From assembly GCA_945901725.1 (NCBI GenBank), contig CAMDLK010000008.1:1-44163 (forward strand): a stretch of DNA of 44,163 nt, read 5' to 3'. Shown piece after piece: positions 1,524 to 23,210 of the stretch. The number at the start of each line of letters is the position of its first letter. The first letter of the stretch is position 1. The position numbers were made by a program, and so were the translations under genes. The DNA is from Bifidobacterium breve (GTDB lineage Bacteria > Actinomycetota > Acidimicrobiia > Acidimicrobiales > Ilumatobacteraceae). The notes under the pieces were generated by a model. The model had not been told where the DNA came from, did not search any database, and worked only from the letters and a program-made list of their open reading frames with translations.

Positions 1524-1547
1524 ATTGCTGGGGCTTTAGAACGCGTC

Positions 1548-1570
1548 GCGCGCAGAAATAAAGTGTGCGC
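1548..1570 (+). terminator. Possible hairpin after sdhB
   Basis: The arms GCGCGCA (1548-1554) and TGTGCGC (1564-1570) can pair over seven positions including one G-U, with a nine-base loop. No T-run follows, so this is not a classical intrinsic terminator. It sits in the only gap between the convergent sdhB and the unknown gene at 1599-2243, where a transcription stop is expected. Confidence 0.25.
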
Positions 1571-1598
1571 AGAATTGAGTGGATCTGTGTCATGCCAG

Positions 1599-2243
1599 CT
1601 AGGGGTTGCTGTTTTCGCCGTCCCAAGGGAAGAATTGGCTCTCTGCCCACTCATCGAAGGCGCTGATGATGTGTTCCTCCCCGACCAATTCGGCTTCGTC
1701 AATTAACTCAATTTGGAAAGTCTTACCGTCGATGCGGTCATTGTGGCAACGCTCAATCTCTTCCTCAGACACCCAGTTGTTTGGGCACATCCGCATGACG
1801 AGACGGGTCGCGGCAAGAAGGTCAACTACGCCCTCCGTCGGGTTCTCGTCAAAGACATGAAACGGTACGCTACCCAACTCCTCCCACAAGGTCTCCAGGA
1901 ACGCATCATTGAATATTGCGTGTACAGCTTCTGATGGAGTCGGTTGGTACTGCTCAAAGTTTGTGTTGCGCTCGAGAGATGCTGCAACAAGTGCAATGGC
2001 GATGTCGCAGCAGAGCGAATCATTTTCATCAAGAGCATTCCGTCGTATTTCACCAAAGAATGCAACTATGTCAGTGACACGCGATACGAAGGAACTGTGT
2101 ACATACGGATCGGACTGGTCGCACTCATCTCGGTACTTCTGAATGATCGTGACAATGTACGTCAAATCAAGCGTCCCCGTCGGAACGATATTGCGTTCGT
2201 TGATAAGACGTTCGTGATGTGCGGGACTAATGACAAATTTCAT
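1599..2243 (-). CDS. Hypothetical protein, acidic, 214 residues
   Basis: I do not recognise this protein. The start at 2243 is chosen because GGAG lies five bases upstream of that ATG; another ATG at 2258 and the longer frame to 2369 lack a comparable site. The protein is acidic, with many Asp and Glu and no membrane segment or signal peptide. It is probably mostly alpha-helical in the first half and ends in an acidic, Trp-containing tail (FFPWDGENSNP). It is divergent from the 102-residue helicase-domain homologue at 2339, leaving about 95 bases as a shared promoter region, and convergent with sdhB. It lies at the boundary between the core sdh operon and accessory genes and may belong to the accessory set. 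Confidence 0.65.
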   Translation of the reverse strand: MKFVISPAHHERLINERNIVPTGTLDLTYIVTIIQKYRDECDQSDPYVHSSFVSRVTDIVAFFGEIRRNALDENDSLCCDIAIALVAASLERNTNFEQYQPTPSEAVHAIFNDAFLETLWEELGSVPFHVFDENPTEGVVDLLAATRLVMRMCPNNWVSEEEIERCHNDRIDGKTFQIELIDEAELVGEEHIISAFDEWAESQFFPWDGENSNP

Positions 2244-2338
2244 GGTTTCTCCATTCATGGGGGCCACGTTACGCACATGTTCCTGTAGGAAAAACGTTCG
2301 AAAATTGATACTTTTTGAATCTTTTTTTGGGTGAGTAA

Positions 2339-2647
2339 TTGAGTAAGGAATCGCACGCTCGAACACCAACCATTAATCGACACGAAGTACCCCCCAGGCT
2401 CGAGAAGGGCGTTACGCGCCTTGAGGCAATTGTCAATGAGGCAGGCGCTGACCTCTTTGTAGTACAGCCGGGTAGGGCTTCTCGAGAAGTCGAGATGTTT
2501 GTGTTCGTTCGTGACGAATACTGTTCATTTCGCACGTGGTGGACCAACGATGGCGGGCTAGATCTGTCTCGATTGGAAGTGACTGGTTCTAACTCGCCAT
2601 CACTCAGCGATCTTGTCGCCTCGGGCATCAATCAAGCCTTCTCCTGA
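2339..2647 (+). CDS. Stand-alone copy of the helicase C-terminal domain
   Basis: 102 residues from a TTG start; GGTGAG lies just upstream and no better start is in frame before the stop at 2334. Residues 14-102 align without large gaps to residues 849-938 of the methyltransferase-helicase at 23815-26631. About 42 of 88 positions are identical by eye, including RHEVP, RLE, DLFVV, REVE, an F-R-x-x-W-T block, GGL and a C-terminal DLV. The function of this domain is unknown to me. DNA similarity is patchy, so this is an old paralogue rather than a recent duplication. The protein could be a free partner that uses the same binding surface as the helicase tail, or the remnant of a lost second helicase. 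It converges on the VIT/vWA gene with a five-base gap. Confidence 0.8.
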   Translation: MSKESHARTPTINRHEVPPRLEKGVTRLEAIVNEAGADLFVVQPGRASREVEMFVFVRDEYCSFRTWWTNDGGLDLSRLEVTGSNSPSLSDLVASGINQAFS

Positions 2648-2652
2648 GGCTT

Positions 2653-4887
2653 CTAGAAATCCTCGGTCCATTGGTTGCGTGAGCTGGCTGCGTTCTGTGA
2701 TTCCTTGATGACAGCGATGAGGTTTTTTGCTGCCTTGGCTTGAGCCTTGGCCGATGATTGTTCTGACTCCTGAACTTTCACAATGCGATTCTTGATCTTG
2801 TTGAATGTTCGAAGGCCTAATGTCGTCGGTTCAACATCTCCCAACCAATAGTTGATTGCGTCCTTCAGCGCGCCCCATTGCTCGGGGGCAATTGTGTCGC
2901 CATCGGCCAATGTTTCGAGCATTGCCTCAAGATACGTAACCAATGTGTTCAACATGTCGAGGGCCAGTTTTTGTCCGAAAGGAATGTAGCCACTTGAGCC
3001 GGTGAATGAATTCAGGCTGTCCATTGCAATGAAATTCGCAACCATTGGGCGTGACGCTCTTGGCACAGTCTGATGAAGGGCAGCTTGGAAGAGGACACCG
3101 CCGTGGAATGAATCCATCGCGAAATTGTCGTAGACAGGCTGAACCAACGTGCGCACGATTACTTGGTCGGTAGTGCGCGAACGGTCCACTGCAAGCCATG
3201 CGGTGTACTTAGACAACACTTTGTACTTCACTGACATCTCCACAATTTTCTTTTCCAGTGCATCGTGGCTGTCCATGCCAGATGCTGCGAAGTCTGATGA
3301 CATCATCCCGTAGTCAAGAGATTTGATGTGTTGGCTAGCCCAACGTGTTGTGGTGGAAGCGTCAGTGCTGATAGTAATCGGAAGCGTGATCACATGTCCG
3401 CTGTCGGCATTCACAACTACCTGATCTCCTTGTTGCGGGCGTGGCATACGGCCGCTGAGGGTCACAATTGTTTCCGGATAGATATCGGGAGCGTGAGATG
3501 GAGCTTGGTCCGTTAAGCCCGTGGCTTCCAAACGCGCTTTTGAATGTGCAGCTGTTGCTACGCGGCTCATGACTTTTGCAGAGGCTTCGGCGAGGCCCTG
3601 TTGAGAGGAGACAAAGACACAAATACCATTTGCTGCCAACACTTCCAAGAATCCATTAGCGTCTTCCCCTACGGCTACGGCGATAACGCGTGCACCCTTG
3701 AGGTCCTTCTCGCGATGCGCCACGGCAGCTGCTTCATCCCCGTAAGCCCCATCTGTGATGATCAACGCGATGCGCTCAATATCTGCAGAGTCTTGCAAGT
3801 CGTCCAACATTGCAAGTGCGGCTCCACCTGCCTTGAATGCTTCGGTAAGTTCCGTGCCGCCACGTGCACGAATGGTTGCGAGTTCTTTACGAAGAGCTTG
3901 CTTTGAAGCACGCGTTGCGGGCACAAATCCGTGCTCTGTAGTTGGGAGAACATCAACCTGATCGTCAAAAGCGAGGATGTGAATTAGGTCGTTGTCAGTG
4001 AGGGAGGCAATGAGATCATCAAGAATGCGATGGGCCCATTCGAGATTTGAACCCGACATGCTGCCACTGCGGTCGAGCATGACCTGTACGGCCTTTCGAC
4101 GTTTAACAACTTTCTTGTCCTTGTCTACGCGGATGTTCACTTCCAATGTGCCCATGTCCTTATCGTCCGTGTCGGCTACCCACTTTGCTACTGCAATGGC
4201 AACGGGGAGAGTCCAGTGCAAAATGATGTCTCCAGTAAGACCAAAGTCTGTGATGGATACCTGTGTTGGTGTGACCTGTGCAGATGGAACTGTTTCGCAG
4301 ATCAGATCTTTTGCTGGTTCGGAAAACGAAATGGTGACAGTGGCGCGAAGTGGCGAGCTGCCAACTCGGCGTGGGGGAGTAATGGTGGACTCATCGGGAA
4401 CTCCGGCGGGCGTATAACGCTCCTTGATCATTGTGGGGAATCGAACTGACGCCTGTGTTCCGTCAATGGCAGCACGATCGTGCATTTCAATGACAACGGA
4501 GATTGCTTCACCTGGGTGAATATTGCCCACGGTAATGGTGAAGATTTCTGCACGTTGTTGTTCGACAATTGCAGCGGAGTGACCTTTATCTTTTGCCTCT
4601 TCGTACTCAATACGAGCAGCTTCGCGTTCCTTGATCTCAGCGGCGACTTCACGATCGCCAATCTTCATGGTCATGCCGGTCACTGCGGCACCCACAGGCA
4701 ATGGAAGAGTGAACACTGCTTCGGCAGGCTCATCAAGTGGATTTTCGAAGGTAGCTTCGACTACCCACATAACGCCGTCGCCGTCTACTGCGCCATTGAT
4801 GTCAATTGCGGTGACAGGAAAATCTGTGTCACCTGTTGCGAGCCTGATGCCAGGGAGTTCTTGTTCTGTGTATGTAGTCATAATCAT
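2653..4887 (-). CDS. VIT domain and von Willebrand factor A domain protein
   Basis: 744 residues from the ATG at 4887, which has AAGGA about eight bases upstream; the longer frame to 5037 is unsupported. Residues about 10-140 form a VIT (vault/inter-alpha-trypsin inhibitor) domain, with the hallmark run of repeated E and A around residues 84-98 and AEIFTITVGNIHPGE. Residues about 265-440 form a vWA domain with a complete MIDAS start D272xS274xS276 and a later ITDGAYGD segment. The C-terminal third includes a conserved AxW-type helical region and a low-complexity Ala/Lys tail. No signal peptide is visible, so it is probably cytoplasmic. Such proteins bind partners through a metal ion, but the substrate here is unknown. 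The start overlaps the stop of the MerR-like gene (ATGA), so the regulator and this protein are co-translated. Confidence 0.88.
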   Translation of the reverse strand: MIMTTYTEQELPGIRLATGDTDFPVTAIDINGAVDGDGVMWVVEATFENPLDEPAEAVFTLPLPVGAAVTGMTMKIGDREVAAEIKEREAARIEYEEAKDKGHSAAIVEQQRAEIFTITVGNIHPGEAISVVIEMHDRAAIDGTQASVRFPTMIKERYTPAGVPDESTITPPRRVGSSPLRATVTISFSEPAKDLICETVPSAQVTPTQVSITDFGLTGDIILHWTLPVAIAVAKWVADTDDKDMGTLEVNIRVDKDKKVVKRRKAVQVMLDRSGSMSGSNLEWAHRILDDLIASLTDNDLIHILAFDDQVDVLPTTEHGFVPATRASKQALRKELATIRARGGTELTEAFKAGGAALAMLDDLQDSADIERIALIITDGAYGDEAAAVAHREKDLKGARVIAVAVGEDANGFLEVLAANGICVFVSSQQGLAEASAKVMSRVATAAHSKARLEATGLTDQAPSHAPDIYPETIVTLSGRMPRPQQGDQVVVNADSGHVITLPITISTDASTTTRWASQHIKSLDYGMMSSDFAASGMDSHDALEKKIVEMSVKYKVLSKYTAWLAVDRSRTTDQVIVRTLVQPVYDNFAMDSFHGGVLFQAALHQTVPRASRPMVANFIAMDSLNSFTGSSGYIPFGQKLALDMLNTLVTYLEAMLETLADGDTIAPEQWGALKDAINYWLGDVEPTTLGLRTFNKIKNRIVKVQESEQSSAKAQAKAAKNLIAVIKESQNAASSRNQWTEDF

Positions 4888-5393
4888 GATGGGTCCTTTT
4901 TTTGTTCGGTTGATGAATCGTCGGTGAATGAAATAAGCGCAAATAACGCACTGGTTACTCGTTGAATTTCGTCTTGGGTGGGCAAACGATGTGTGAATCC
5001 ACTGAGTTGGATATTGTGGGAAATTTGAAAGGCCCATCCGTCGGCTTGTGCTGCGGGCTTCATCATTGAATTAACAACAAAGGCTCGGTTCGCACCAACG
5101 TTGGCCATCTTCCATGTGGGAAGTTCATCGCGCATAGGTGGCGGGCCAATCTTTTTCAGTGATTGTCCAGCGCTTTGTGCACGACGAACTCGAACAAGGT
5201 CTCTGACGTGATCATCGGTCCACATAGACTTTCCACCAGCGCGCAGGGGTGGGCGTACAACTCCGAGAGTGACGTAGTAACGCACGTTTCGTTCTGTGAA
5301 TTGTTGTGCGATGCGCTCGTCGCCAACAGCGAGATGTGCCGTGGCTTCGTGCACTGCTGTCAGCAGTTCTTCAATATTGAGTAATTCAGACAT
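4884..5393 (-). CDS. MerR-like transcriptional regulator
   Basis: 169 residues from the ATG at 5393. Residues about 28-85 have the winged-helix signature of MerR proteins: ERNVRYYVTLGVVRPP followed by a wing and a helix containing VRDLVRVRRAQSAGQSLKKIG. The C-terminal half (about 90-160) is a separate domain with no cysteine cluster, so a metal-sensing role is not indicated. No ribosome binding site precedes the ATG, and a likely -10 element (TATGCT) lies only about six bases upstream, suggesting a leaderless transcript. A pair of direct repeats overlaps the promoter, which fits autoregulation. The gene is coupled to the VIT/vWA gene, its probable regulatory target. Confidence 0.78.
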   Translation of the reverse strand: MSELLNIEELLTAVHEATAHLAVGDERIAQQFTERNVRYYVTLGVVRPPLRAGGKSMWTDDHVRDLVRVRRAQSAGQSLKKIGPPPMRDELPTWKMANVGANRAFVVNSMMKPAAQADGWAFQISHNIQLSGFTHRLPTQDEIQRVTSALFALISFTDDSSTEQKKDPS

Positions 5394-5611
5394 GGCCCCA
5401 GCATACTGGTAGTTTGACAGTAAAACAACTAGCAGTATGACAGTAATAATCCCAAGCCCCATAAGCTTTTCCCTGCCTAGGGGGGGGGCTCTCAGGGCAA
5501 TCAGGTCCAGTGATCCACGGTTATCAAACGTCAATTCTGTAACCATTCCCGACAATCTCGGCGCCAAGGGACCTTAAGTACAGAGTCACAAGTGTGCACG
5601 AAGGAGAAAAT
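5394..5611. other. Intergenic region with a nine-base G run
   Basis: Divergent gap between the MerR-like gene and the start of the accessory island. Apart from the operator repeats it contains a run of nine G at 5480-5488, preceded by CCTA. No tRNA, terminator or integrase-type attachment site was recognised. AAGGAG at 5601-5606 is the ribosome binding site for the next gene. Confidence 0.5.
5401..5446 (-). promoter_or_regulatory. Promoter with two operator-like direct repeats
   Basis: Read on the + strand, AGTTTGACAGTAA (5411-5423) and AGTATGACAGTAA (5434-5446) are direct repeats with one mismatch, 23 bases apart, about two helical turns. On the minus strand TTGTTT and TATGCT are separated by 17 bases, and TATGCT ends about six bases before the regulator's ATG. 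One repeat falls inside the 17-base spacer, the usual place for MerR-family binding. The pairing of repeats with this promoter is seen directly; the role as a self-operator is inferred. Confidence 0.55.
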
Positions 5612-6016
5612 ATGGCAAGCGCCACAGCTTTTGTTTTGATTGGGTCACCCCATCCGAACGACAACGGAATTGGCCCGGAATGGCTCCTTGAACTCTGGGA
5701 AGGAAGCGTGGCTAGGTGGTCCGTAAGAAACCTGCGCGATGGGCAATCTCACGCCTCGATTGAACCATCGAGCCCTGCTGACATTGGGTCCTCCCTAGTA
5801 CATTTTATCTCGAAACTAACTAGCACCGAGTCGGTTGAAATTTCTGTCGTCGTATCAGCACTCGAGAATTCTTCGGTTATCTCTCATATAGATCTTTTGA
5901 AAAGCCTTCGAGAATGTGACGTACACGTTCTGTTGCCGACATACTCCAGAACCTTTAGTTCGTGGTCGCAGAGTTGGAATGAATCTCTTGGTGGATCGCA
6001 GGAGTCAAATCAGTAG
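5612..6016 (+). CDS. Hypothetical protein, 134 residues
   Basis: The start at 5612 is chosen because AAGGAG precedes it by five bases; a GTG at 5594 is in frame but has no such site. I do not recognise the family. The sequence alternates short hydrophobic strands with charged loops: an N-terminal strand ATAFVLIG, a strand VEISVVVSAL near residue 80, and a strand CDVHVLLPTY near residue 110. This suggests a small alpha/beta fold. There is no membrane segment or signal peptide. The stop codon directly abuts the ATG of the next gene, so it is the first member of a three-gene operon with two PemK/MazF-like proteins. Confidence 0.65.
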   Translation: MASATAFVLIGSPHPNDNGIGPEWLLELWEGSVARWSVRNLRDGQSHASIEPSSPADIGSSLVHFISKLTSTESVEISVVVSALENSSVISHIDLLKSLRECDVHVLLPTYSRTFSSWSQSWNESLGGSQESNQ

Positions 6017-7321
6017 ATGGCTCATTTAGAGTGTGAAATCACAGCTCAAAGGGATGACGGAGCATTTCGTTGGCGTCGATTAGGAGCTTCAGAACCCAAT
6101 GGTTGGTTACCGGCGGAAATTGTGCCGCAGAATGTCAACGTCGGCTCAATCGTCCTTATTGATTTCACGAACAACGGAGGCCGCACTTCACCTGCGTCAT
6201 GCCGATTGCGTGATTCTCTAGAAGATGAAAATCCAATCGCAAAAACAAGTCCGGAATTACAAGAGGCGCCTTCGCCCCTGCCATCTTCCGGACTCTTGTT
6301 CTGGGTCAACGTTATGAACCCACTTGAAAATGAAAACTCAGGGGGCAAACTTCGCCCAGCTGTACTTGTATCGCAAAAGGGCGACGATTGGCGCGTCATG
6401 GGACTTACGACGAAATCTACATACGCGACAGGGGAGCAGCGCCGACCGATTCCAAACGCACACTCAGTCGGCTTATCCGGACCGGGATTCCTTTGGGGTC
6501 ATTACTTGGTTCGAGTCACAGCCGACAGCGTCCATTCGTACATTGGTAAAGCAAACTATCGACTTGTGGAAGAAATAGTTGATCTCGCTCGACAAGATTT
6601 ATCGAATGACGAAATTGACGATTTGCGGTCGGTAACACGACCAGACGTTCACAGTGGCCATGCACTACAGATTTCAGTCCACCAAGAAAAAATCCTGCTT
6701 ACAGCCGACTCTCTTATTGAATACTTCAACTCACATCAGGACCAAATTCTGGAAGACCTGACCAAGTACTTCAGTTCGACTTCATTCACTGGTCGTTACT
6801 TCGAACACTATTCAAGGGCAGCTAATCCGTTCGCCTTTGATGGTAACGACATAGCTGCTGTTATGTGTTTGAGTATTTCACCTCATGCAAACATCGCTGC
6901 TGCATTATTGAGTTTGAATACAAAGAGCGAATTTATAATTAATGCAGCGGAACGAGAGATTCCAATCTGGCAACGTCCACGATCTGATTATGAAGAGCAA
7001 AGCCGATTCAACTTGATTTTTAATGATCTATGTCAGGTTCAAAACATTGCGTCGGTAATCGCATCGAAATTGATGGCGTCGAAGTTCCCACACTCAATTC
7101 CAATCAGAGATGGTGATGTAGCCGCCTTGTTGAATCATCCAGAAAAGTGGTGGCTTGGTTGGCACGAAGCAATGCAGTCATCGTCACTGAGGAAACGTCT
7201 TTCGTTCTTTAGAGATTCAATTGGTTTCCAAGAAGTCTCACTACTTCGAATAGCTGATGTAGCACTGTGGATGGAGGCCCAACGACGTAAGAAGGACGGC
7301 TCTTTGGGGCGTACACTTTGA
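6017..7321 (+). CDS. PemK/MazF-like barrel fused to a DUF6308-like domain
   Basis: 434 residues with three parts. Residues 1-55 look like a small beta domain (WRRLGASEPNGW, then GSIVLIDF). Residues about 92-195 resemble the PemK/MazF barrel: WVNVMNPL, then KLRPAVLVSQ, then VMGLTTKS. In MazF toxins the equivalent of RPAVLV forms the core strand next to the RNA-cutting site. Residues about 258-430 (TGRYFEHYSR to ADVALWMEAQ) resemble DUF6308, an uncharacterised actinobacterial domain with a SIPIRDGDV-like segment and a terminal DVALWM. The first gene of the operon abuts it with no gap. Whether the barrel cleaves RNA or only binds it cannot be told. The domain calls come from motif memory. Confidence 0.62.
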   Translation: MAHLECEITAQRDDGAFRWRRLGASEPNGWLPAEIVPQNVNVGSIVLIDFTNNGGRTSPASCRLRDSLEDENPIAKTSPELQEAPSPLPSSGLLFWVNVMNPLENENSGGKLRPAVLVSQKGDDWRVMGLTTKSTYATGEQRRPIPNAHSVGLSGPGFLWGHYLVRVTADSVHSYIGKANYRLVEEIVDLARQDLSNDEIDDLRSVTRPDVHSGHALQISVHQEKILLTADSLIEYFNSHQDQILEDLTKYFSSTSFTGRYFEHYSRAANPFAFDGNDIAAVMCLSISPHANIAAALLSLNTKSEFIINAAEREIPIWQRPRSDYEEQSRFNLIFNDLCQVQNIASVIASKLMASKFPHSIPIRDGDVAALLNHPEKWWLGWHEAMQSSSLRKRLSFFRDSIGFQEVSLLRIADVALWMEAQRRKKDGSLGRTL

Positions 7322-7341
7322 ATCAGGAGGTTCTTTCTTAG

Positions 7342-8886
7342 ATGCCTGAGTACCCGCAGCTCGCTCGTGACATCACCGCTCTTCGAAAGAGGGGCGATGT
7401 CGATGGCGCGATCGCAATCTTCAACAAAGCTGACCAAATTGAGAAAGCCAAGCCTGAGCTCAGATCGTCTGTTGCTTGGTGCCTATACGAACGTGACATC
7501 AAGTCATGCAGCGGATCAGACATTCGTGTTACCGACGAAATGCTGGCGAAAGCCTTTAAAGCAGTCGGCTCAGTTAGAAAACTTGTGACCCATGATCTGT
7601 ACTCAAAGTTCAGTGCGTACCCCTGGAGCCTTCTCGCCACCGCACGTCTGATGCGTGACCATGATAAGGACGACCAACTAGTAGCGCTGCTCGCATCTGG
7701 TGATGATCCTCTTCTCATCTCATCTGAGAGTGATAACAGTTTTCCATCACATCGAGATCAGTGGGTGTTATTGGCCATCGAGGCTGGCAAACGTGTGTTG
7801 AAGGGTGACAACCTCACTCAAACCCGAGTGAAAACCGTTGAACCGATCTTGAAATCTCTTAAGAGATTAAATGACGCCGTTGGCCTATCCAACGAGAAAC
7901 CGAACGTTGAAGTTGATGGACAAAAGAAGAGATTTCCATCACCCCGACAGCGTTTCCTTCTTCAATACTCGCGGTATCTGCAAGAAATGAATTGGGATGA
8001 TCAACAAATTGCTTTTTGTGATTCTGTGATTGACAGTGAAGTTTTTTTCAGAGACACAAATTTGAAGTGGATCCTCTACAGATTGTCCCGCGCACTCATA
8101 CAGTCAAACCCTGCTCGAGCATTGAAAGTATGCGACGACTTTGTAGCTATGGAATACCGCCCGTATGCGCTGCTACTAAGAGCAGAAATTCTTCTCGCAA
8201 AAGGGGACAAAGAAGCTGCTTTGCGTGAAACTGCCCATTCTCTGCAGATAATTACGAACAGAGATCTGCCATTCATCACAAAAAATCTGGCATTTCTTGC
8301 CGAGTTAACAGATGATTCAAATGTTAAACGTGACCATATACAGATGCTCAGAGCAATCAGGGTCGAACAAGGCCACCCACCGTCGCCGCAACTTGAACAG
8401 AAGGCAATAGAGATGAACCTTCCATCCGCTGATCAGGCACCATCTGCCGATGATTTGCGTGACCAATGGATTTCAATTAATCCTGAGCCCAAGAGACCAG
8501 TCGCAGTCCATACAAATTCGAAAAAGAAACAGAAATTTGTTGCAGCTAAGCAGTTGAATCAACAGCGAGAGCGCCTCGACAAAGAAAAATACAACCGTGA
8601 CACGCCCCGATTCGGCGAAGTTGTATTCGCTCCCATAGCTACAGCACAAGGCGATGTCCGGCGGAGACCTGTAATAGTTGTTGGAGAATCCGAAGGGTTA
8701 CTTCTTGTCCGACTTCTGCATACTCAACCAACAATTGCGGGTGCAATTAAAATTGAATCATGGAATGAAGCTGGGCTAAGACAAGCGACTTTCTGTGTTC
8801 CATCCACCAGAGAAGTAGATGCTGCAAGCACCACAGTTATTGGTCGGCTGTCTGACGCAGACGTGGCAAACATCAAAAATTCGTAG
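7342..8886 (+). CDS. Helical-repeat protein with C-terminal PemK/MazF-like barrel
   Basis: 514 residues with an ideal AGGAGG eleven bases before the ATG. Residues about 1-350 are alpha-helical with TPR-like spacing: short helix pairs such as ARDITALRKRGDVDGAIAIFNKA at the N-terminus and LIQSNPARALKVCDDFVAMEYRPYALLLRAEILLAKGDKEAAL near the middle. Residues about 385-420 are a basic, coiled linker rich in Lys and Gln. Residues about 422-514 (RFGEVVFAPI, RRRPVIVVGE, then LVRLLHT) resemble the PemK/MazF barrel. The arrangement suggests a repeat scaffold that presents a nucleic-acid-binding or RNase-like domain. It sits 20 bases after the DUF6308-like gene and shares a barrel type with it. It converges on the replication initiator gene with a 13-base gap. 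Confidence 0.6.
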   Translation: MPEYPQLARDITALRKRGDVDGAIAIFNKADQIEKAKPELRSSVAWCLYERDIKSCSGSDIRVTDEMLAKAFKAVGSVRKLVTHDLYSKFSAYPWSLLATARLMRDHDKDDQLVALLASGDDPLLISSESDNSFPSHRDQWVLLAIEAGKRVLKGDNLTQTRVKTVEPILKSLKRLNDAVGLSNEKPNVEVDGQKKRFPSPRQRFLLQYSRYLQEMNWDDQQIAFCDSVIDSEVFFRDTNLKWILYRLSRALIQSNPARALKVCDDFVAMEYRPYALLLRAEILLAKGDKEAALRETAHSLQIITNRDLPFITKNLAFLAELTDDSNVKRDHIQMLRAIRVEQGHPPSPQLEQKAIEMNLPSADQAPSADDLRDQWISINPEPKRPVAVHTNSKKKQKFVAAKQLNQQRERLDKEKYNRDTPRFGEVVFAPIATAQGDVRRRPVIVVGESEGLLLVRLLHTQPTIAGAIKIESWNEAGLRQATFCVPSTREVDAASTTVIGRLSDADVANIKNS

Positions 8887-8899
8887 ATCAAAGTCTCAG

Positions 8900-9901
8900 T
8901 TAATCGACTTCTTCAGCACCAGTTTCATAGTTGAGTCGCATCTTCACCTCACCGCCAACACCGCCAAGATCAGGCAATGAAGACAGTATCCGGCGATATC
9001 TACGGTCAGTCTTTGATGAAATATCCACCGTGAATGAGTCATTCCTCGCCTGAAGCCACCCAACAAAAAAGAGTTTCTCACGGTCACTCAACTCAGTTTG
9101 AAAAAGCGCATCCCAAATTGTGTGATGTCCACCAACCCATGTTCCAAACTTGGCTTTGTCAAACCAATCACGACGAATTCCTTCACATCGCTCAGGAGTC
9201 ATATCAGAAACCGAAACAACTGCTCCGTGTCTTGACTGTGTGGACACGGAACTCAACTGGCGCGAGCGCAAACGAAATTCGGCTCGCAAAGACCCACGCT
9301 CAGCCATCCCACCAGACTCAACATGCTTGTCATAAAGCGTTGCGGCCCAGCTAGCTGGACCCACGCGAAGAGTTTCTGCACGTCCAGTCCGCCCATCAGC
9401 AAATCTGCGTACCTTGATGCGGCCGTCGTGTGGCACGCGAGCTAACCCATCAAGAATCGGCGTCAGCCGTGACGGATCCTTCAAATGAAAATCCCGAACA
9501 AGGTCGAGTCGAACCACTCGAGGATCTCTGACAGATACGGTCCGGGAAACACCAGATTCGGTACTGATCTCACGAGCAGGACCAGGTTCGACAAAATACA
9601 AAGCCTCTGCCACCAAATCATCGATGGCTTCCTTGGTCTCTTCCAGACTCAGGCCGGCAGTGTTCTCACCCCTAGAGCGATTAGGAAGACTCGCCTCTAT
9701 CCATGCCATTTCGCCAACGCCAACGCCAACGAAGCCCCCACCGGGCAGCTTGAAGCGATTTCGATCACCCCACTCGGCACGTACCCCTGGCCTCAGACCC
9801 CTACCAACCACCGGAATCGCAACCCCGACGGTATCAACAGACAACTCAACCACAGTTCGCCAATCGTACGATTCTGCAGCGTCGGACCTGGGGATTGTCA
9901 C
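8900..9901 (-). CDS. Replication initiation protein, Rep_trans-like (phage/plasmid type)
   Basis: 333 residues. The protein has the pattern of rolling-circle initiators of the Rep_trans group (pT181-type Rep and filamentous phage initiators): an N-terminal VDTVGVAIPV strand, RLDLVRDF at 131-138, TLYDKHVES at 188-196 and GSLRAEFRLR at 203-212. Such proteins nick a double-strand origin through a tyrosine; Y190 is the obvious candidate but I cannot assign it. The gene reads opposite to all its neighbours and is visibly richer in G and C than the flanking genes, with a short CCAACG repeat (about 9714-9731). No integrase, capsid or mobilisation gene is adjacent. It is probably the remnant of an integrated plasmid or filamentous phage. 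The reading frame is intact. Confidence 0.7.
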   Translation of the reverse strand: MTIPRSDAAESYDWRTVVELSVDTVGVAIPVVGRGLRPGVRAEWGDRNRFKLPGGGFVGVGVGEMAWIEASLPNRSRGENTAGLSLEETKEAIDDLVAEALYFVEPGPAREISTESGVSRTVSVRDPRVVRLDLVRDFHLKDPSRLTPILDGLARVPHDGRIKVRRFADGRTGRAETLRVGPASWAATLYDKHVESGGMAERGSLRAEFRLRSRQLSSVSTQSRHGAVVSVSDMTPERCEGIRRDWFDKAKFGTWVGGHHTIWDALFQTELSDREKLFFVGWLQARNDSFTVDISSKTDRRYRRILSSLPDLGGVGGEVKMRLNYETGAEEVD

Positions 9902-9978
9902 TAATAGAAGACATTCATGAACCCTTATTCCCTTTTAAAAACAAATCACACGAAAAACAAAACGCAGTCCGAACCCCA

Positions 9979-10006
9979 GGATTTTTATGCTTTAGCATCA
10001 AAATCC
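9979..10006. repeat. Strong inverted repeat, possible replication or regulatory hairpin
   Basis: The left arm GGATTTTTATGCT (9979-9991) and right arm AGCATCAAAATCC (9994-10006) pair at 12 of 13 positions with a two-base loop. It lies about 80 bases upstream of the Rep-like start codon. The stem is AT-rich and is not followed by a T-run, so it is not a typical terminator. Rolling-circle initiators of this type often nick inside or beside a hairpin, so a double-strand origin is possible, but no known nick sequence was recognised. Confidence 0.55.
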
Positions 10007-10099
10007 CTATTTTGCTTTCAAGCGCAGGGAACATCACGAGTGCGTCGCGCAGCAGCACGACGAGGATGTCTCTGCTAACAGAACACGAGACAAAAGAGG

Positions 10100-10137
10100 C
10101 TTCCGCGGAAGAAGGTTCGAAAATCGGACGAAAATCG
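10100..10137. repeat. Palindrome and two short direct repeats
   Basis: CTTCCGCGGAAG at 10100-10111 is a perfect 12-base palindrome. CGAAAATCG occurs at 10118-10126 and again at 10129-10137, 11 bases start to start. The spacing of about one helical turn resembles a protein-binding array. It may bind the Rep-like protein or a regulator of the rightward operon; which is unknown. Confidence 0.4.
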
Positions 10138-10165
10138 CAACTGTTTGTCCCTGCACGCATACCCT

Positions 10166-10192
10166 TATAAAGTGCCCTTCGAGGGGTCGAAG
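10166..10192 (+). promoter_or_regulatory. Possible promoter and leader hairpin of the rightward operon
   Basis: TATAAA at 10166-10171 is a plausible -10 element, with only a weak -35 upstream. The inverted repeat CTTCGA-GGGG-TCGAAG (10177-10192) follows, close to the expected transcription start, and ends five bases before the ATG at 10198. GAGGGG inside the hairpin is the only ribosome-binding-like sequence, so folding would hide it. This could be an operator or a translational control hairpin. Confidence 0.42.
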
Positions 10193-10197
10193 TTACA

Positions 10198-10656
10198 ATG
10201 ACATCAAATCAAGCGAACAGAAAACTCTCCCTAGAAGACCTCGCTAGCGCGTTTGGTTGGTCCGGCCCTGAAACATCGGCCGAATGGTATCTGCAACCAA
10301 ACAAAACGATTCCCCAGTCTGGCAAACGCCATTTCGATCCAAGCAGGCCCGATGGTAAACACCCGGTACTACTACTTGATAGAAAAATCCAAAAGTCGGA
10401 CCCGCCAACACAGACTTATCCCTGTTGGATACGTAGCGCTACTGTCCCCTCAAGGATCCAACATCTAAAACACAACCACGACGACAATAGGACTTGTGCT
10501 CTCAATGCACTTGGTTGGTTCGTTACTGAAAGCTCTGTGCCAATTAGCAAAGAAGATTTAAAGAACTACTTCTGTGATGAACCCCTAGATTCAAAGTTGC
10601 TTGTTTCTCTTAGACGGCATGCTAAATCACTAGATAAGCAAATCGGATTCACGTGA
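10198..10656 (+). CDS. Hypothetical protein, 152 residues, first gene of the ATPase/restriction operon
   Basis: I do not recognise the family. The N-terminal 60 residues are polar (SLEDLASAFGW and a Trp-containing AEWYLQPNKT). The middle has a strand HPVLLLDRKI followed by PCWIRSATV, and the C-terminal third contains ALNALGWFVTES, VPISKEDLKNYF and LLVSLRRHAKSL. A strand of the type PVLLLD followed by a Gly-Trp turn and a basic terminal helix is loosely reminiscent of PemK-like barrels, but the match is too weak to assert. The stop overlaps the start of the next gene (TGATG), so they are coupled. Expression probably depends on the promoter and hairpin just upstream. Confidence 0.6.
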   Translation: MTSNQANRKLSLEDLASAFGWSGPETSAEWYLQPNKTIPQSGKRHFDPSRPDGKHPVLLLDRKIQKSDPPTQTYPCWIRSATVPSRIQHLKHNHDDNRTCALNALGWFVTESSVPISKEDLKNYFCDEPLDSKLLVSLRRHAKSLDKQIGFT

Positions 10657-11705
10657 TGTCGCACACTATTGAAGACCTGCGGCAGGACCTTTTAAACCTC
10701 GACCGACTACACAAAAAATCACCGCTCTATATCGAAATAAGGCAACTAACTGAGAAAGCACACAGGAAATTATCGGAAAGACTCTCGCATGATTTAACTG
10801 ATTTCGATGACGCATTTCAGAGAACCATGATGTTTCTGACGAAGTCCATAAGCGACAGAAAACCGTCTAGCCCCCTCGAGCTCTATCTAATTCACGAGTA
10901 TGAGCGAAGAAAAGCCATCGGCGAAGAACTACTCATCACAGAGTTTCGAAGAATTCTCTTCACGATCATTAAGAATGACCTTCTGACAGTTCACAACAGT
11001 GGGTACGTGGAATCTCTCGTTGACCGCTCCGTCCGCCTTCTCAAAGAACTATCCACCGTTAGATTTGAAGCGTCCAGCAGCAGTTTCATGATTATCGATG
11101 GACAGGTTCCTGGCCAGCTACCCACACCCAACGACATAGTGGCGGTAGCGAACATATGTTCAAGAATTGCGAAAATACCCCAAACCTCTGAACAGCGAAA
11201 CAGTCCCGTCTATTCGACCCCAAATCTTGAAGTAATTCTCCAAACCCTTATTTCTAGGGTAAATCACTTTAGAAAAGATGATCTTTATGAATTGTTTTCT
11301 TATCTTCTGACATCTTGGCTTCCATCACACCTTTCATCCACTGATGAAACAACTTTCCGCCATGCCGACATTGCAAATAGCTCCGGCCCAGCTGATGCAG
11401 CAATTGGCAATGAGGAATTCTCACTTCAAGCGGCAGACCAAATCTGGCGGGAACTCTCTGAAAATCAAAGACGATTTATGCATGCCCAAACATGGAACGT
11501 TCTTCAAGAAGAGATCGCACACAGGGTTGAATTCATCGACTCTCGAGACCCCAGTCGCTCAAGGACATATTCGCGACCATGGATTGTCCAATTGCAGCAA
11601 TCCACCCTCGAGACACTTCGCAATTTGCTTTCCCCATTCGAATATGATGAGCAACTCGAAATTGTGCGCATCGTGAACGAGATTGCCTCTAACTACCACT
11701 TTTAG
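10656..11705 (+). CDS. Hypothetical helical protein, 349 residues
   Basis: The start at 10656 is taken because the TGATG overlap with the preceding stop is a common coupling arrangement; a GTG at 10653 is also in frame. The protein is largely alpha-helical and charged, with basic segments (RQLTEKAHRKLSERL, HEYERRKAIGEELL) and no membrane segment. Helix-rich regions with a TFRHADIANSSG linker near residue 230 divide it into two lobes of roughly 130 and 120 residues. I see no enzymatic motif. Its fixed place between two other unknown genes and a DUF3696 ATPase suggests a structural or regulatory subunit of one complex. Confidence 0.6.
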   Translation: MSHTIEDLRQDLLNLDRLHKKSPLYIEIRQLTEKAHRKLSERLSHDLTDFDDAFQRTMMFLTKSISDRKPSSPLELYLIHEYERRKAIGEELLITEFRRILFTIIKNDLLTVHNSGYVESLVDRSVRLLKELSTVRFEASSSSFMIIDGQVPGQLPTPNDIVAVANICSRIAKIPQTSEQRNSPVYSTPNLEVILQTLISRVNHFRKDDLYELFSYLLTSWLPSHLSSTDETTFRHADIANSSGPADAAIGNEEFSLQAADQIWRELSENQRRFMHAQTWNVLQEEIAHRVEFIDSRDPSRSRTYSRPWIVQLQQSTLETLRNLLSPFEYDEQLEIVRIVNEIASNYHF

Positions 11706-11709
11706 ACTT

Positions 11710-12408
11710 ATGAACAACTCAACACCTTTAGAGATATTAAAAAATCATCAGCCGTTCTCGACCCTCGCTCCTATCTCGTTGCCCAAAAACGAGATAGAAG
11801 TGGTAGTCGGCCAGATCCGTTCCTTTAGATTTGTCAACTCAGAAAACGAAATCGAACAGCGTTTTGTCCTCGTGACAGCAATGTCGTCCACTACTTCTTT
11901 GATAGTTCAAGGAATGCTTATCGGTACAGACTTTAAACTTTCCGGAAAGAATGACGTGCTGCTCCACGAAGAAGAAAGACCGTCGTTTGAGGCTGTTGTG
12001 GCTCAAACAGACCTGCGGTTTCCTGTGCTCCGCGCCGACCTTGGCGCGCTTTATTCGAATCTCAATGCGGAAACCTTGCAACTTTTTTCCAAAATGAACA
12101 ACTACTCAGGTCGTGATGTTTCACGTTCTGGCGTCCATCGAGACGCTTCCCATCTCATTCGTCAGGATTATCTCAGAGATGAATTAGACGCTGTGCGCTC
12201 AATCACTCAAAGTGCTTTTGCCGCCATGGCAGGTCCTGATTACAAAGCCGAGAAGGTAAAGGAACTTGAGTTGAAGGGATTTCGCTTTGAAGAACGAGCA
12301 TTGCGGGAAAAGTCGGCTACGTATGAAACAAAGCCATCAAGCAATGAGCTTCAAGATCTTCTTCAAAAACGGTCACAAAGACGAGCAAAGGAAATGGTCG
12401 CAGCATGA
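11710..12408 (+). CDS. Hypothetical protein, 232 residues, coupled to the ATPase
   Basis: The start at 11710 lies four bases after the preceding stop; a TTG at 11683 would add nine residues. The N-terminal 115 residues look like a beta-rich domain: EIEVVVGQIRSF, RFVLVTAM, LIVQGMLIGTDFKL, then DLRFPVLRADLGALY. The C-terminal half is helical and ends in a highly charged coil (ELELKGFRFEERALREK, then QDLLQKRSQRRAKEM). No catalytic motif is clear. The last four bases overlap the start of the DUF3696 ATPase, so the two are made together and are likely partners. The beta-rich part could be a distant relative of the PemK-type barrel, but this is speculative. Confidence 0.6.
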   Translation: MNNSTPLEILKNHQPFSTLAPISLPKNEIEVVVGQIRSFRFVNSENEIEQRFVLVTAMSSTTSLIVQGMLIGTDFKLSGKNDVLLHEEERPSFEAVVAQTDLRFPVLRADLGALYSNLNAETLQLFSKMNNYSGRDVSRSGVHRDASHLIRQDYLRDELDAVRSITQSAFAAMAGPDYKAEKVKELELKGFRFEERALREKSATYETKPSSNELQDLLQKRSQRRAKEMVAA

Positions 12409-14486
12409 CCAATAATCAATTCATCAACAATATTCGTGTCAAAAACTTTAAATCCATCACTGACGCCAATATTGATTTGCTTCCACTGAACGTAGTTGTC
12501 GGACGTAATAGCGCCGGTAAGAGTTCGCTCATGCATGCAATTTTGCTAGCAGCTCAGCACCTATCCAGCGATTTCATCTCAGATGAGAGAATCTCTCTGA
12601 ATCGAAACATGGTTAATCTCGGTACATTTCGAGAAGTTCTAAACTTTGCAGAAAATCTTGACTCCTCTGTGCAGATTGGAATTGACACCAAAGACACTTC
12701 TTGGCAAGTCGACTTTGCTCAAAGTTGCAACATTGATGGAACGCCTCGATTTCAATCACGTGAAGCAATGATTAAAAAGATTCAGATCAAGGAATCACCA
12801 TCTGTATCAAATCGGTCACCTCTTAGGTACGTCAATTTCTCTTTTGAAATCTCAGGTTCGCCGGTACGCGTGACACCAGTTCTGCTTCCATTCGGTCCTG
12901 GCAAACGCGCGGAGATGCCTCTGGCTGTCGGTGTTGGGACCATCACATATGCCACCAGCGAGTCGAGTGATGCAATCACACGTACTTTTGAAAATTGCCT
13001 CTTTCTACCCTATGCAGATAAACGCATACATCCATTACCAATGGAGAAGGTTGACTTTTTCCACGTAGCGGTCGAACGATTTTATTCAGCTTGTGAAAGA
13101 CAAGATCGTAGAGCAAAAGCCATGCGACGACGTTCTGGATCGAGGAGTCTTGTCGCTTCCTCCGGTGATCAAAATTCTCCTATTCAACCTCTTGAGGTTT
13201 CGCAATTCTTCTCCTTTTTAGTCACAAATCATTCTGTACGAGAAGAGCCGATACACGTTCCGCAATTTCAAGAAATTACCTCTAAGAAGTTGCACGAGCA
13301 TCTCAATTATCGTGATGATGTCGAGCGAAACGTGACTCGCGTTATGAGACGCATTCGGGATATTGGCTTCCGGCCGTGGGAAATCATTGATGATTACGTA
13401 AATACGTCCGAGAGGCAGGCTAAATCAAGGACTGAATTCCATGCTGATCTTTGTGCTTCTGTGCTCGACTTAGGGCTTTCTGAAGTGAAAAATTTATTAT
13501 TGCCAGTTTTACAATCACTTTATGGTGTTACGTCTCTTCTAGTCCTGAAACCGCTTTCCTTAGAAATTACGGAAGGTGAGGCAGAAACTGATGTAACGGT
13601 GCTCGACGACAACGTGCTCATAGAATTTTTTGAGAGCGGAAGGGACCGTGTCACTAGGTCCGCCAAAAATATCTATTACTTGGGGCCAATCCGCGATGTG
13701 GATTACCCATCTGCTCAGCTACCAGACCCGCGTAATTTAGGCCCTAAGGGCGAACAAGCTGTTGAAGTGCTTGTTCATGAGGCATTGACCGTAAATGATT
13801 TTCCACTTCCCGAAACCTTTCAGGGCTTGTTGAATGGATCATCTACAGCAGTCAATTTTAGTGAAGCTCTTCGTGCTTGGTTAGTCCATTTTGAGATCGC
13901 TAAGGGTGTGATCACAGAAGATCAAGGCCGCGATAAGCCACGAATGGTTGTACAAATAGGTGACCTAAGTAAGCCAATTAATCCCGCCGACAATTCTGTT
14001 GACATTCGATCTGTTGGTCAGGGGCTTTCGCAGTTACTGCCCGTGATTATGCAATGTCTTCTGGCAGCGCCAGGAAACTCGCTAGTGATTATTGAACAGC
14101 CAGAATTACACCTTCACCCGAAGCTTGAATCGCAACTGGCTGATTTCTTCCTCGCATGCGCACGGACTGGACGACAAATCTTTGTGGAAACTCATAGCGA
14201 GCATCTCATCAACCAACTGCGTTTTAGAATTGCAGAAGATGATTCCAGCAAAACTCAAGATCTAGTTCAAGTATTATTTGCTGATCAAGTGGATGGCGTT
14301 ACAAGATTTGAAAAAGCCGAGATTGATCAATATGGAGGCCTAGTTGAAGAACAGTGGCCATCGGGATTTTTGGAACTGAATGTAGTTGCAGCTGAGAGAT
14401 TGATTGATGCTGCGCTTGATAAGCGAATTCACGAACTTGAGTCTGTTGAAGAAGCCCAAGATTCTGACGATGATGACGATTTTTAG
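12405..14486 (+). CDS. RecF/OLD-like AAA ATPase with DUF3696 C-terminus
   Basis: 693 residues. The Walker A motif GRNSAGKS is at 33-40, right after the INNIRVKNFKSI strand typical of SMC/RecF-type ATPases. The Walker B region LVIIEQPELHLHP starts at 560, and the following THSEH (596-600) is the conserved D-loop/H-motif area. The C-terminal stretch IDQYGGLVEEQWPSGFLE matches the DUF3696 pattern. There is no Toprim nuclease domain after it, so it is not a GajA-type OLD nuclease. The tail is acidic (EAQDSDDDDDF). ATPases of this class occur in several phage-defence modules, where they sense or remodel DNA and act through partner proteins. Here the partners would be the three small upstream genes. 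hsdM begins 19 bases downstream. Confidence 0.82.
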   Translation: MTNNQFINNIRVKNFKSITDANIDLLPLNVVVGRNSAGKSSLMHAILLAAQHLSSDFISDERISLNRNMVNLGTFREVLNFAENLDSSVQIGIDTKDTSWQVDFAQSCNIDGTPRFQSREAMIKKIQIKESPSVSNRSPLRYVNFSFEISGSPVRVTPVLLPFGPGKRAEMPLAVGVGTITYATSESSDAITRTFENCLFLPYADKRIHPLPMEKVDFFHVAVERFYSACERQDRRAKAMRRRSGSRSLVASSGDQNSPIQPLEVSQFFSFLVTNHSVREEPIHVPQFQEITSKKLHEHLNYRDDVERNVTRVMRRIRDIGFRPWEIIDDYVNTSERQAKSRTEFHADLCASVLDLGLSEVKNLLLPVLQSLYGVTSLLVLKPLSLEITEGEAETDVTVLDDNVLIEFFESGRDRVTRSAKNIYYLGPIRDVDYPSAQLPDPRNLGPKGEQAVEVLVHEALTVNDFPLPETFQGLLNGSSTAVNFSEALRAWLVHFEIAKGVITEDQGRDKPRMVVQIGDLSKPINPADNSVDIRSVGQGLSQLLPVIMQCLLAAPGNSLVIIEQPELHLHPKLESQLADFFLACARTGRQIFVETHSEHLINQLRFRIAEDDSSKTQDLVQVLFADQVDGVTRFEKAEIDQYGGLVEEQWPSGFLELNVVAAERLIDAALDKRIHELESVEEAQDSDDDDDF

Positions 14487-14505
14487 AAAGTCCTTAGCTA
14501 ACTAA

Positions 14506-16005
14506 ATGCCCCCAAAAAATGAAGAAAATGTGCAGGACCTTGAGCAATGGCTATGGGCCGCTGCAAATATCCTTCGCGGGCCGGTTGACATGGCCGACTT
14601 CAAGGCCTACATCTTTCCGCTCCTCTTTCTTAAGCGCCTTAGTGATGTCTACGACGAAGAGTTTGCAGAAGCTCTTGATCTCTCTAATAACGACGAAGAG
14701 TTTGCACAATTAGCTGAACAGCATCGTTTTCAAATTCCAGAAGGTGCCCACTGGTCCAATATTCGCAAGCTGAATCAAAGCGTTGGTACGGCTATCGGTA
14801 AAGCGATGCGTGCAATTGAGCGTGCTAACCCAAACAACTTATTCCAGATTTTTGGTGACGTTCAATGGACGAACAAAGCGCGACTTCCTGATTCACTTCT
14901 TCGAGACCTGGTGGAACATTTCAGTGGAAAGAATCTCTCGGCAAGCGTTGTACCAGACGACATGTTGGGCGACGCATACGAGTACCTGATCAAGAAATTT
15001 GCCGATAAATCGCGCAAGAGTGCCGGTGAGTTCTTCACCCCTCGTTCGGTCGTTGAACTGATGATCAACATTCTTGATCCGAGGCCAGGCGAAACCATCT
15101 ACGACCCATCGTGCGGTAGTGGGGGAATGCTGATTGAGGCAGTCAAACACGTAAAGGAAGAAGGCGGAGACCCGCGTCTTTTGTTTGGCCGTATCTATGG
15201 TCAAGAAAAGAACTTGAACACTGCATCCATCGCGCGCATGAACTTAATCCTGCATGGCATGGAGGATTTCAGCATCGCAACAGCCGACACGCTACGTGAA
15301 CCCCAATTTGTCCAGCGTGACACTCTTATGACTTTCGACTGCGTTATCGCTAATCCACCGTTCTCACTGAAGTCGTGGGGCGAAGATCTGTGGGAGAACG
15401 ATAGGTGGGGGCGAAACATCGCCGGAACTCCACCTGCCTCAAATGGCGACTGGGCATGGTTACAACACATGATTTCGTCAATGTCGACCGGCAACGGACG
15501 CATGGCAGTCGTCGTGCCCCTCGGTGCATTGTTTCGCGGTCAGAGCGAAGGTCGAATTCGCAGCGCGATTCTGGACATGGACATCATTGACACAGTGATT
15601 GAACTAGGCAGTAATTTGTTCTACGGAGCCTCTATTCCGGCATGCATCGTTGTTGCGAGGTCACGTAAACCCAAGAATCGTAAGAACTCTGTGCAGTTCA
15701 TTAATGCATCCGACCTTCTTCTTAAAGGTCGAAATCAGAACACGCTTGAGAATGAACACATCAAGCAAATTTTTGAGTTGTATCAAAGTCATGACGAAGT
15801 CGAACTGTTCTCGCGAATTGTTCCGAATGATGTAATTCGTGCCAACAACGCTGACTTATCTCCAAACAAATATGTGACAAAACATATGGCAGAGACACTT
15901 ATTTCTGTTGATGAAGCAATGTCAGCACTCCGCACCGCTGCAGATGCAGTCAAGCAGTCGGAACAACGTGTCTTACAAATTCTTACCAACTGGAAACTAC
16001 TGTGA
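14506..16005 (+). CDS. hsdM: Type I restriction-modification methyltransferase subunit, first copy
   Basis: 499 residues. The N-terminal HsdM helical domain (LEQWLWAAANILRG, then FLKRLSDVYDEEF) is followed by an N6-adenine methyltransferase domain. The SAM-binding motif DPSCGSGG is at 200-207 and the catalytic motif NPPF at 283-286, both intact. It transfers a methyl group from S-adenosylmethionine to adenine in the site chosen by HsdS. A second, different HsdM follows immediately, overlapping by four bases from a GTG start. The C-terminus is a helical HsdS-binding region. No strong ribosome binding site is seen, so expression may depend on read-through from the ATPase gene. Confidence 0.92.
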   Translation: MPPKNEENVQDLEQWLWAAANILRGPVDMADFKAYIFPLLFLKRLSDVYDEEFAEALDLSNNDEEFAQLAEQHRFQIPEGAHWSNIRKLNQSVGTAIGKAMRAIERANPNNLFQIFGDVQWTNKARLPDSLLRDLVEHFSGKNLSASVVPDDMLGDAYEYLIKKFADKSRKSAGEFFTPRSVVELMINILDPRPGETIYDPSCGSGGMLIEAVKHVKEEGGDPRLLFGRIYGQEKNLNTASIARMNLILHGMEDFSIATADTLREPQFVQRDTLMTFDCVIANPPFSLKSWGEDLWENDRWGRNIAGTPPASNGDWAWLQHMISSMSTGNGRMAVVVPLGALFRGQSEGRIRSAILDMDIIDTVIELGSNLFYGASIPACIVVARSRKPKNRKNSVQFINASDLLLKGRNQNTLENEHIKQIFELYQSHDEVELFSRIVPNDVIRANNADLSPNKYVTKHMAETLISVDEAMSALRTAADAVKQSEQRVLQILTNWKLL

Positions 16006-17480
16006 CAAATAAACTGATCACTCTGTCAGAGTTAGAGGCGTACCTGTGGGGTGCTGCAAACCTTATGCGTGGCTCTATTGATGCCGGCGAATACAAGAAT
16101 TACATTTTCCCTCTCCTCTTTGTTAAGCGACTCAGTGACGTGTACGACGAAGAATTTGAAGAGGCCCTTGAAGCCAGTGGTAATGACGAAGAGTTTGCCG
16201 TGCTTCCTGAACAACATGCATTCCAGGTGCCTAAAGAAGCTCATTGGAAACAGATCCGCGAAAAAAATGCGGAGGTGGGTAGAGCCATTCAGAACGCAAT
16301 GCGAGCAATTGAAACTGCAAATCCTCGCCTTGAGGGCGTGTTCGGTGATGCTCAATGGACTAATTCGAATCGACTCAGTAACAGCATGTTGCGAAATCTC
16401 ATCGAACACTTCTCAATGTACGACTTACGCATTGCAAATGTGCCTGAAGATGAACTTGGTCAGGGATACGAATTTCTGGTGAAAAAATTTGCCGATGATG
16501 CCGGCCACACTGCGCAAGAGTTCTATACCAATCGCACCGTTGTGCACCTGATGACAGAGTTGTTACAGGTGAAGCCAGCAGAGAGCGTGTACGACCCAAC
16601 GTGTGGCACAGGCGGCATGCTTTTGTCCGCATCTCGTTATCTGAAGTCAAAGAACAAGGAACATCGCAATTTGCGTCTGTATGGACAAGAGCGAAATGTA
16701 ACGACCTCTTCCATTGCACGCATGAACTTGTTTCTGCACGGAATTGAGGACTTTGAAATAGCCCGCGCAGATACGTTGGAAGACCCTCATTTTATTGAAA
16801 ATGACCAGTTGCGAACATTTGATGTGGTTCTTGCTAACCCTCCTTATTCCATCAGTCAGTGGAATCGCGACGCGTGGAAGTCAGACAGGTGGGGTCGTAA
16901 TACGTTTGGTACTCCGCCGCAAGGCCGGGCTGATTACGCATTCTTTCAACACATAGTCTCCAGCATGGACAAGAAAACAGGACGTTGTGCAATTCTGTTT
17001 CCCCACGGAGTCCTATTTCGAAAAGAAGAAGTAGCTATGCGTCGCGCCATGGTGGAAGCCGATGTGATTGACACTGTCATAGGGCTCGGACCAAATTTGT
17101 TTTACAACGCACCTATGGAATCATGCATTGTTATTTGTAGGTCAAAGAAACCAAAAGCCCACAAGGGAACCATCTTGTTCATCGATGCCGTTAACGACGT
17201 CACAAAACAACGTAGTAACTCGTATCTCAGCGATGAGAACCAAAATAAGATCACCGCGGCATTTAACTCAGAAGAAGATGTTGTCGCCTTCTCAAAGCGG
17301 GTCAAGATTGAAGATATCGAGGCTGAAAACTTTGACCTGACAGTTCACCGCTACGTTGAGCGCGTGCTGGCAGGCGGCGGGCTCTCGGTTGTCGACGCGA
17401 TCTTAGGTTTTAAGGACGTTCATTTGACAATGAACAAAGCAGTTGCGCACGTATTAGGCAGCTCTGCGGGGCCGTCATGA
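16002..17480 (+). CDS. hsdM: Type I restriction-modification methyltransferase subunit, second copy
   Basis: 492 residues from a GTG that overlaps the previous stop. The domain order is the same as in the first copy: LEAYLWGAANLMRG, KRLSDVYDEEFEEAL, motif DPTCGTGG at 198-205 and NPPY at 279-282. Both methyltransferase motifs are complete, so it should be active. It is clearly homologous to the first copy along its whole length, but many residues differ (NPPY instead of NPPF, EFYTNRTVV instead of EFFTPRSVV). It is therefore an old duplication rather than a copy made in assembly. Type I methyltransferases normally contain two identical HsdM; here a mixed pair is possible. It overlaps hsdS by four bases. 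Confidence 0.92.
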   Translation: MTNKLITLSELEAYLWGAANLMRGSIDAGEYKNYIFPLLFVKRLSDVYDEEFEEALEASGNDEEFAVLPEQHAFQVPKEAHWKQIREKNAEVGRAIQNAMRAIETANPRLEGVFGDAQWTNSNRLSNSMLRNLIEHFSMYDLRIANVPEDELGQGYEFLVKKFADDAGHTAQEFYTNRTVVHLMTELLQVKPAESVYDPTCGTGGMLLSASRYLKSKNKEHRNLRLYGQERNVTTSSIARMNLFLHGIEDFEIARADTLEDPHFIENDQLRTFDVVLANPPYSISQWNRDAWKSDRWGRNTFGTPPQGRADYAFFQHIVSSMDKKTGRCAILFPHGVLFRKEEVAMRRAMVEADVIDTVIGLGPNLFYNAPMESCIVICRSKKPKAHKGTILFIDAVNDVTKQRSNSYLSDENQNKITAAFNSEEDVVAFSKRVKIEDIEAENFDLTVHRYVERVLAGGGLSVVDAILGFKDVHLTMNKAVAHVLGSSAGPS

Positions 17481-21453: not shown

Positions 21454-21458
21454 CTTTG

Positions 21459-21932: not shown

Positions 21933-21946
21933 GGCCAAGATTTTTT
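21921..21946 (+). terminator. Intrinsic terminator of the ATPase/type I restriction operon
   Basis: The arms AATCTTG (21921-21927) and CAAGATT (21936-21942) pair perfectly with an eight-base loop, and T runs to 21946. The stop codon of the preceding gene is in the loop. This is the clearest intrinsic terminator in the window and closes the unit that begins near 10198. Confidence 0.75.
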
Positions 21947-21985
21947 CTGACACCCGCTGGAGTAAGGTCTCTTTAACTAATTGCC

Positions 21986-22498: not shown

Positions 22499-22534
22499 CA
22501 ATTAATTGCGCAAGGACCCTTACCTAGAACGTAC

Positions 22535-22569
22535 GAACGAGATCGTTCAATAACTGACTACCAGTAGTC
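22535..22569. promoter_or_regulatory. Two adjacent inverted repeats upstream of the AlkB operon
   Basis: GAACGA-GA-TCGTTC (22535-22548) and GACTA-CCAG-TAGTC (22556-22569) are perfect dyads in the 144-base gap before the gene at 22643. A third weaker one, CCGC-N8-GCGG, ends at the start codon. No T-run follows, so operators are more likely than terminators. Confidence 0.4.
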
Positions 22570-23203: not shown

Positions 23204-23210
23204 TCTCAGC

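Follow-up and report, generated by a model that had tools for sequence, protein, structure and literature searches.

A free-standing helicase tail module at an insertion spot between sdhB and moxR, probably a stub of a lost helicase island

In the window, the whole 44,163-nucleotide stretch of DNA analysed here, which is an entire contig, a short reading frame (free-standing tail ORF, Table 1) encodes a copy of the last domain of a methyltransferase-helicase. We propose that this free tail is, on balance, probably the right-edge 3′ stub of an older helicase island that has since been lost. This reading is favoured because all relatives of the free tail that were found are helicase ends and because the free copy lies at the right edge of the small insert that carries it (insert A).

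Table 1. Features of the sdhB-moxR region of the window
Feature	Coordinates	Strand	Description
Insert A	1528..2647		~1.1 kb, sdhB to VIT-VWA gene; P0003 + free tail; junctions approximate
Left imperfect direct repeat	1528..1541		CTGGGGCTT-TAGAA, far end of insert A
P0003, orphan gene	1599..2243	-	214 aa from ATG; SD-like GGAG upstream; divergent from free tail
Free-standing tail ORF	2339..2647	+	102 aa, TTG start, uninterrupted frame
Right direct repeat	2644..2658		CTGAGGCTTCTAGAA; holds free-ORF stop codon TGA
Resident insert, VIT-VWA + MerR-type genes	2653..5497	-	Pfam VIT, VWA, MerR_1
Insert B, type I restriction island	5498..26698	+	21 kb; right junction between 26632 and 26698
Methyltransferase-helicase	23815..26631	+	938 aa, last island gene; core matches Pfam AAA_30/UvrD_C_2, PADLOC PDC-M16A
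Helicase first tail module (predicted)	26107..26349	+	residues 765-845; first unit pLDDT ~73-84
Helicase second tail module	26359..26625	+	residues 849-937; counterpart of free ORF

Homology, divergence and distribution of the free tail

Residues 14-102 of the free-tail product align without gaps to residues 849-937 of the helicase, with 44 of 89 positions identical (49%) and 63 of 89 similar (BLASTP, E=9e-28 for the single comparison). This is in agreement with the initial annotation, which had described a free copy of the helicase C-terminal domain 24 kb away, matching at about 42 of 88 positions, and the shared blocks it named (RHEVP, DLFVV, REVE, F-R-x-x-W-T, GGL and DLV) are indeed present. 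At E<=10, the host genome contains matches at two places only, the free tail and the helicase tail. The DNA is much less alike, as had also been noted: identity is 55% over the 89 codons, and 60, 72 and 34% at the first, second and third codon positions, respectively. Third codon positions are thus saturated between the free and fused tails, which differ in the way of two lineages that have long been under constraint as protein. A DNA identity of 55% with saturated third positions places the origin of the free tail in another helicase lineage and not in the present gene. Compared with the earlier term "old paralogue", a piece of a different helicase lineage describes the free tail better, since the divergence excludes the present gene as its source.

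The free tail bears no signs of decay; its frame is open, and its divergence is symmetrical with that of the fused tail. Indeed, the two are about equally distant from the tail of the orthologous helicase in G151, a relative of the same family (22/84 identical for the free copy, 21/84 for the fused one). In simulation, however, a frame of this length stays open in ~40% of copies at 0.1 neutral substitutions per site, so the open frame is weak evidence of function and weak evidence against a stub. An SD-like GGTGA lies 4 nt upstream of the TTG start, a match equalled at ~9% of random places. The helicase homology ends at the start of the ORF, where a stop codon in frame immediately precedes the TTG. 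When 1524-2380 was compared in six frames with the helicase, nothing above shuffled sequences was returned that would indicate further helicase parts upstream. No sigma-70-like promoter was found in 1500-2700. The free tail is known from one draft genome (1.92 Mb in 112 contigs, 87% complete).

Other free-standing tails were sought at several depths. None was found in 221 genomes of the family with the helicase, including its tail, as query, and the free ORF itself, used as query in 200 of these 221, gave no other free-standing copy; matches in G020 and G024 (L004, L005) were judged to be chance after reading the loci. A tail profile run against 395 genomes of the class, 396 of the phylum and 11 close genomes added only the G151 helicase and no free tail, and a profile search of genome contigs with the helicase alignment likewise recovered the G151 contig only. 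The free ORF matched nothing among plasmids, phages and viral contigs. With the tail of a distant Acinetobacter helicase, 62 of 62 plasmid records matched, each covering at least 80% of the two tandem modules (described below), and the 30 matches listed were annotated as AAA ATPases, the two exceptions being a "hypothetical protein" and a stretch without annotation at the end of a record. The initial annotation had named a profile search without intact free-standing members as what would refute its idea, and the searches point largely towards refutation: none was found besides 2339-2647.

A predicted TBP/KA1-like module

The AlphaFold model of the free tail is ordered from about residue 19, with a mean pLDDT of 83 and a core above 90, and contains in order a helix, four strands and a helix (alpha-beta4-alpha). 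The top structural alignment matches, which in a second-look fold comparison were the best among the matches listed, are the KA1 domain of MARK1 (3ose; Z 8.0, rmsd 3.6, 76 aligned) and the N-terminal domain of E. coli RnlA (4i8o; Z 8.0, rmsd 3.0, 80 aligned); a Z of ~8 is also common for models without true relatives, and these matches, like those to CENP-N structures, are thus borderline. With Foldseek alone, the best hits reached E=0.065 in the PDB and 0.011 in viral models, and the tail profile gave only insignificant matches to ribosomal eL8 among the sequences of solved structures. The free ORF has the alpha-beta4-alpha arrangement in common with the KA1 domains of MARK/SAD/Chk1 kinases but matches them nowhere in sequence. 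Its fold also resembles the N-terminal domains of the RNase LS toxin RnlA, from which it differs in being a single module with no sequence match and without a HEPN RNase domain (Pfam, PADLOC).

For the last 200 residues of the helicase, two such modules in tandem are predicted, although the model is low in confidence (58.6) because only two sequences were available. The first module has its KA1 and RnlA rows at Z 5-6.4, and the break that delimits the free ORF falls exactly within the linker joining the two. In more distant plasmid helicases, from Leisingera, Acinetobacter, Pseudomonas, Hymenobacter and Shewanella, two modules occupy the corresponding position, and each of the five matches Pfam PF22721 (TBP-TOTE). 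This family stands at the C-terminus of PADLOC PDC-M16A helicases, in which tandem modules end a related SF1 helicase, as is predicted for the window helicase, and it resembles the window tails in predicted secondary structure and position; unlike the TBP-TOTE helicases, the free ORF is one module without a helicase. The PDC-M16A profile covers residues 294-757 of the window helicase (E=1.6e-76) and stops before the tail; it also matches the G151 helicase, and it gives no match to the free ORF. PF22721 finds no match up to E=10 in the free ORF, the window helicase tail or the G151 tail, and profile comparison was not significant. We therefore describe the tail as TBP/KA1-like, judged by predicted fold and position, and not as a member of PF22721.

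TOTE stands for TPR, OB, TBP and Effector, and the named components of TALON systems include TBP genes, shared with TOTE (PMC12458937). By analogy with these TBP components, tails of the present kind may read nucleic acids. As for TOTE components in the window, the product of 7342-8886 has a weak TPR match, below the Pfam cut-off, and the tail is TBP-like by fold only.

Three inserts between sdhB and moxR

Comparison with relatives resolves the 25 kb block between sdhB and moxR into three inserts. The initial annotation had placed the two tail copies near opposite ends of an accessory block, and this position stands, but the block is not one unit. Five relatives of the same genus (G136, G104, G115, G197 and G753) have a moxR-like gene directly after sdhB, with short gaps, whereas G750 has the order sdhB, ~20 bp, VIT-VWA/MerR pair, moxR. 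Window DNA at 2653-5497 is 80% identical to that of G750 at the same place, and G750 has neither insert A nor insert B; by this comparison, the VIT-VWA/MerR pair is an older resident insert. A 617-aa gene occupies the same spot in G754 and G043. Since different relatives carry different inserts here, the sdhB-moxR gap (1524-26698 in the window) is an insertion hot spot in the genus.

Insert A is also absent from the relatives in which sdhB abuts moxR. It is flanked by an imperfect direct repeat, the right copy of which, CTGAGGCTTCTAGAA, continues straight into resident sequence common to G750. Only 0.12% of shuffles and 0.5% of random window pairs attained the local score of the repeat, so that the repeat is supported, though not certain. 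The other gene of insert A, P0003, encodes an acidic product and has a good ribosome site. It has no match in Pfam, NCBIfam, PHROGs or PADLOC, no convincing relative in the collections searched and no match among the island proteins; a match in G040, where 44 aa within a 737-aa frame are 34% identical, was set aside as probable chance.

Insert B is absent from G750 and other relatives. A collinear island lies between pilT and pilA in G151, which belongs to a different genus of the same family (L084, L008; G151:C11). The shared part, 5594-26631 in the window, encodes a DUF6308 protein, a TPR-like protein, several orphan genes, an AAA ATPase, two HsdM, HsdS, HsdR, a NYN protein, an AlkB-like oxygenase and the methyltransferase-helicase, and has the appearance of a single composite type I restriction element. 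The sole gene of the window island without a G151 counterpart is a 158-aa ORF at 21456-21932 (+). An orphan 333-aa gene inside the island (8900-9901, -) has no Pfam, NCBIfam or PHROGs match; it is 76% identical in G151, being conserved like HsdR and HsdM, and is a candidate mobility or control gene. G151 has, between the left end of its island and pilA, a gene whose 550-aa product contains several S1 RNA-binding domains (L084 6813-8465, -), which seems to be part of the G151 insert and has no counterpart in the window island. Elsewhere, a relative of the N-terminal methyltransferase domain of the helicase (32% over residues 29-233) occurs without a helicase at a contig end (L088, G114:C4, 2-820).

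In both islands, the right edge is at or close to the 3′ end of the helicase. The G151 orthologue, 48% identical to the window helicase, has its stop codon inside the last codons of pilT, and these codons are native, being present also in relatives without the island; the right edge of the G151 island therefore falls in the final codons of the helicase. The window helicase stops 32-67 bp short of resident DNA. Together with insert A, this makes three inserts (insert A, the window island and the G151 island) in which the tail has a right-edge position. No convincing DNA motif of 8 bp or longer is common to the right ends.

Origin of the free tail

These observations are best explained by the following course of events. 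Islands of this type carry the helicase last, its 3′ end lying at or close to their right edge. A previous island of another lineage, with a helicase that shared 49% identity with the present one in its tail, probably entered beside sdhB and was then lost except for its right-hand end, the last domain of the helicase, now beside P0003, which may be either cargo of the lost island or a separate arrival. The resident VIT-VWA/MerR genes separate this remnant from the present island. In this reading the break fell between the two tail modules of the helicase, which is why one complete TBP/KA1-like module, probably able to fold, is still encoded by the stub. The homology, the three-insert structure, the edge position in three inserts and the lack of other free copies in the collections searched are shown; we infer which island was lost, that it was deleted and that the remaining ORF has no selected function. 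The stub is favoured by the stop codon of the free ORF within the junction repeat of insert A, the match of that edge to helicase 3′ ends, the lack of free-standing relatives in the searches, the tandem, helicase-borne state of the distant plasmid tails, the abrupt end of the homology, the lack of a sigma-70-like promoter and the varying inserts at this spot. Genomic-island edges can carry gene remnants. Like these, the free tail would be the 3′ end of a cargo gene that abuts a junction, at a site of varying inserts; unlike such remnants, it keeps a complete domain and an open frame. The open frame speaks against a stub, as do the break exactly between modules, the SD-like site, a divergence no faster than that of the fused tail and the fact that insert A yielded no further remnants of an older island beside the free tail.

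The ORF may instead be a working free-standing module, which we regard as the less likely reading. Such a module would bind the same partner or nucleic-acid ligand as the second module of the helicase, and thereby check or redirect the helicase; it would be a separate TBP-like subunit, comparable to the TBP genes of the TOTE-related TALON systems. In its favour are the intact 102-codon frame, a start precise to the domain, a confidently predicted fold, the SD-like site, divergence no faster than in the fused tail and the occurrence of separate TBP genes among TALON components, shared with TOTE (PMC12458937). Against it, no free-standing relative was found anywhere we searched, the collinear G151 island included; the ORF lies flush with an insert edge; its open frame, given the survival rate in simulation, says little; and the homology ends abruptly at an in-frame stop, with no sigma-70-like promoter. 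The more specific proposal that the ORF encodes a single-module TBP-like protein that modulates the methyltransferase-helicase by competing or pairing with its own tail module is slightly more doubtful again. The initial annotation had offered an inhibitor, adaptor or sensor alongside the stub of a lost helicase; edge position and the restriction of all relatives to helicase ends favour the stub and make a functional module the less likely of these.

It is improbable that insert A is instead a small mobile unit, composed of P0003 and a tail-coding right end, in which the tail is kept as a DNA end and not for its protein. The imperfect direct repeat that flanks insert A and the location of all three tails at or near right edges would fit such a unit, but the right ends share no convincing motif of at least 8 bp, insert A contains no recombinase, and the substitutions separating the tails are spread over codon positions as in a protein. 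A recent duplication of the present helicase 3′ end, which the presence of both copies inside one 25 kb accessory block might suggest, is refuted by the divergence (49% protein and 55% DNA identity, saturated third positions), close relatives moreover lacking the block, and we give it almost no weight.

If the free tail were a working module, it would provide a trans-acting tail, open to direct test, in a class of defence helicases that is poorly understood. As the stub that we favour, it would record a helicase island that occupied this hot spot earlier, and the helicase 3′ end would mark the island edge and help to delimit such islands. Of wider use than the free tail itself is the collinear 21 kb restriction island, which two genera of one family carry at different sites.
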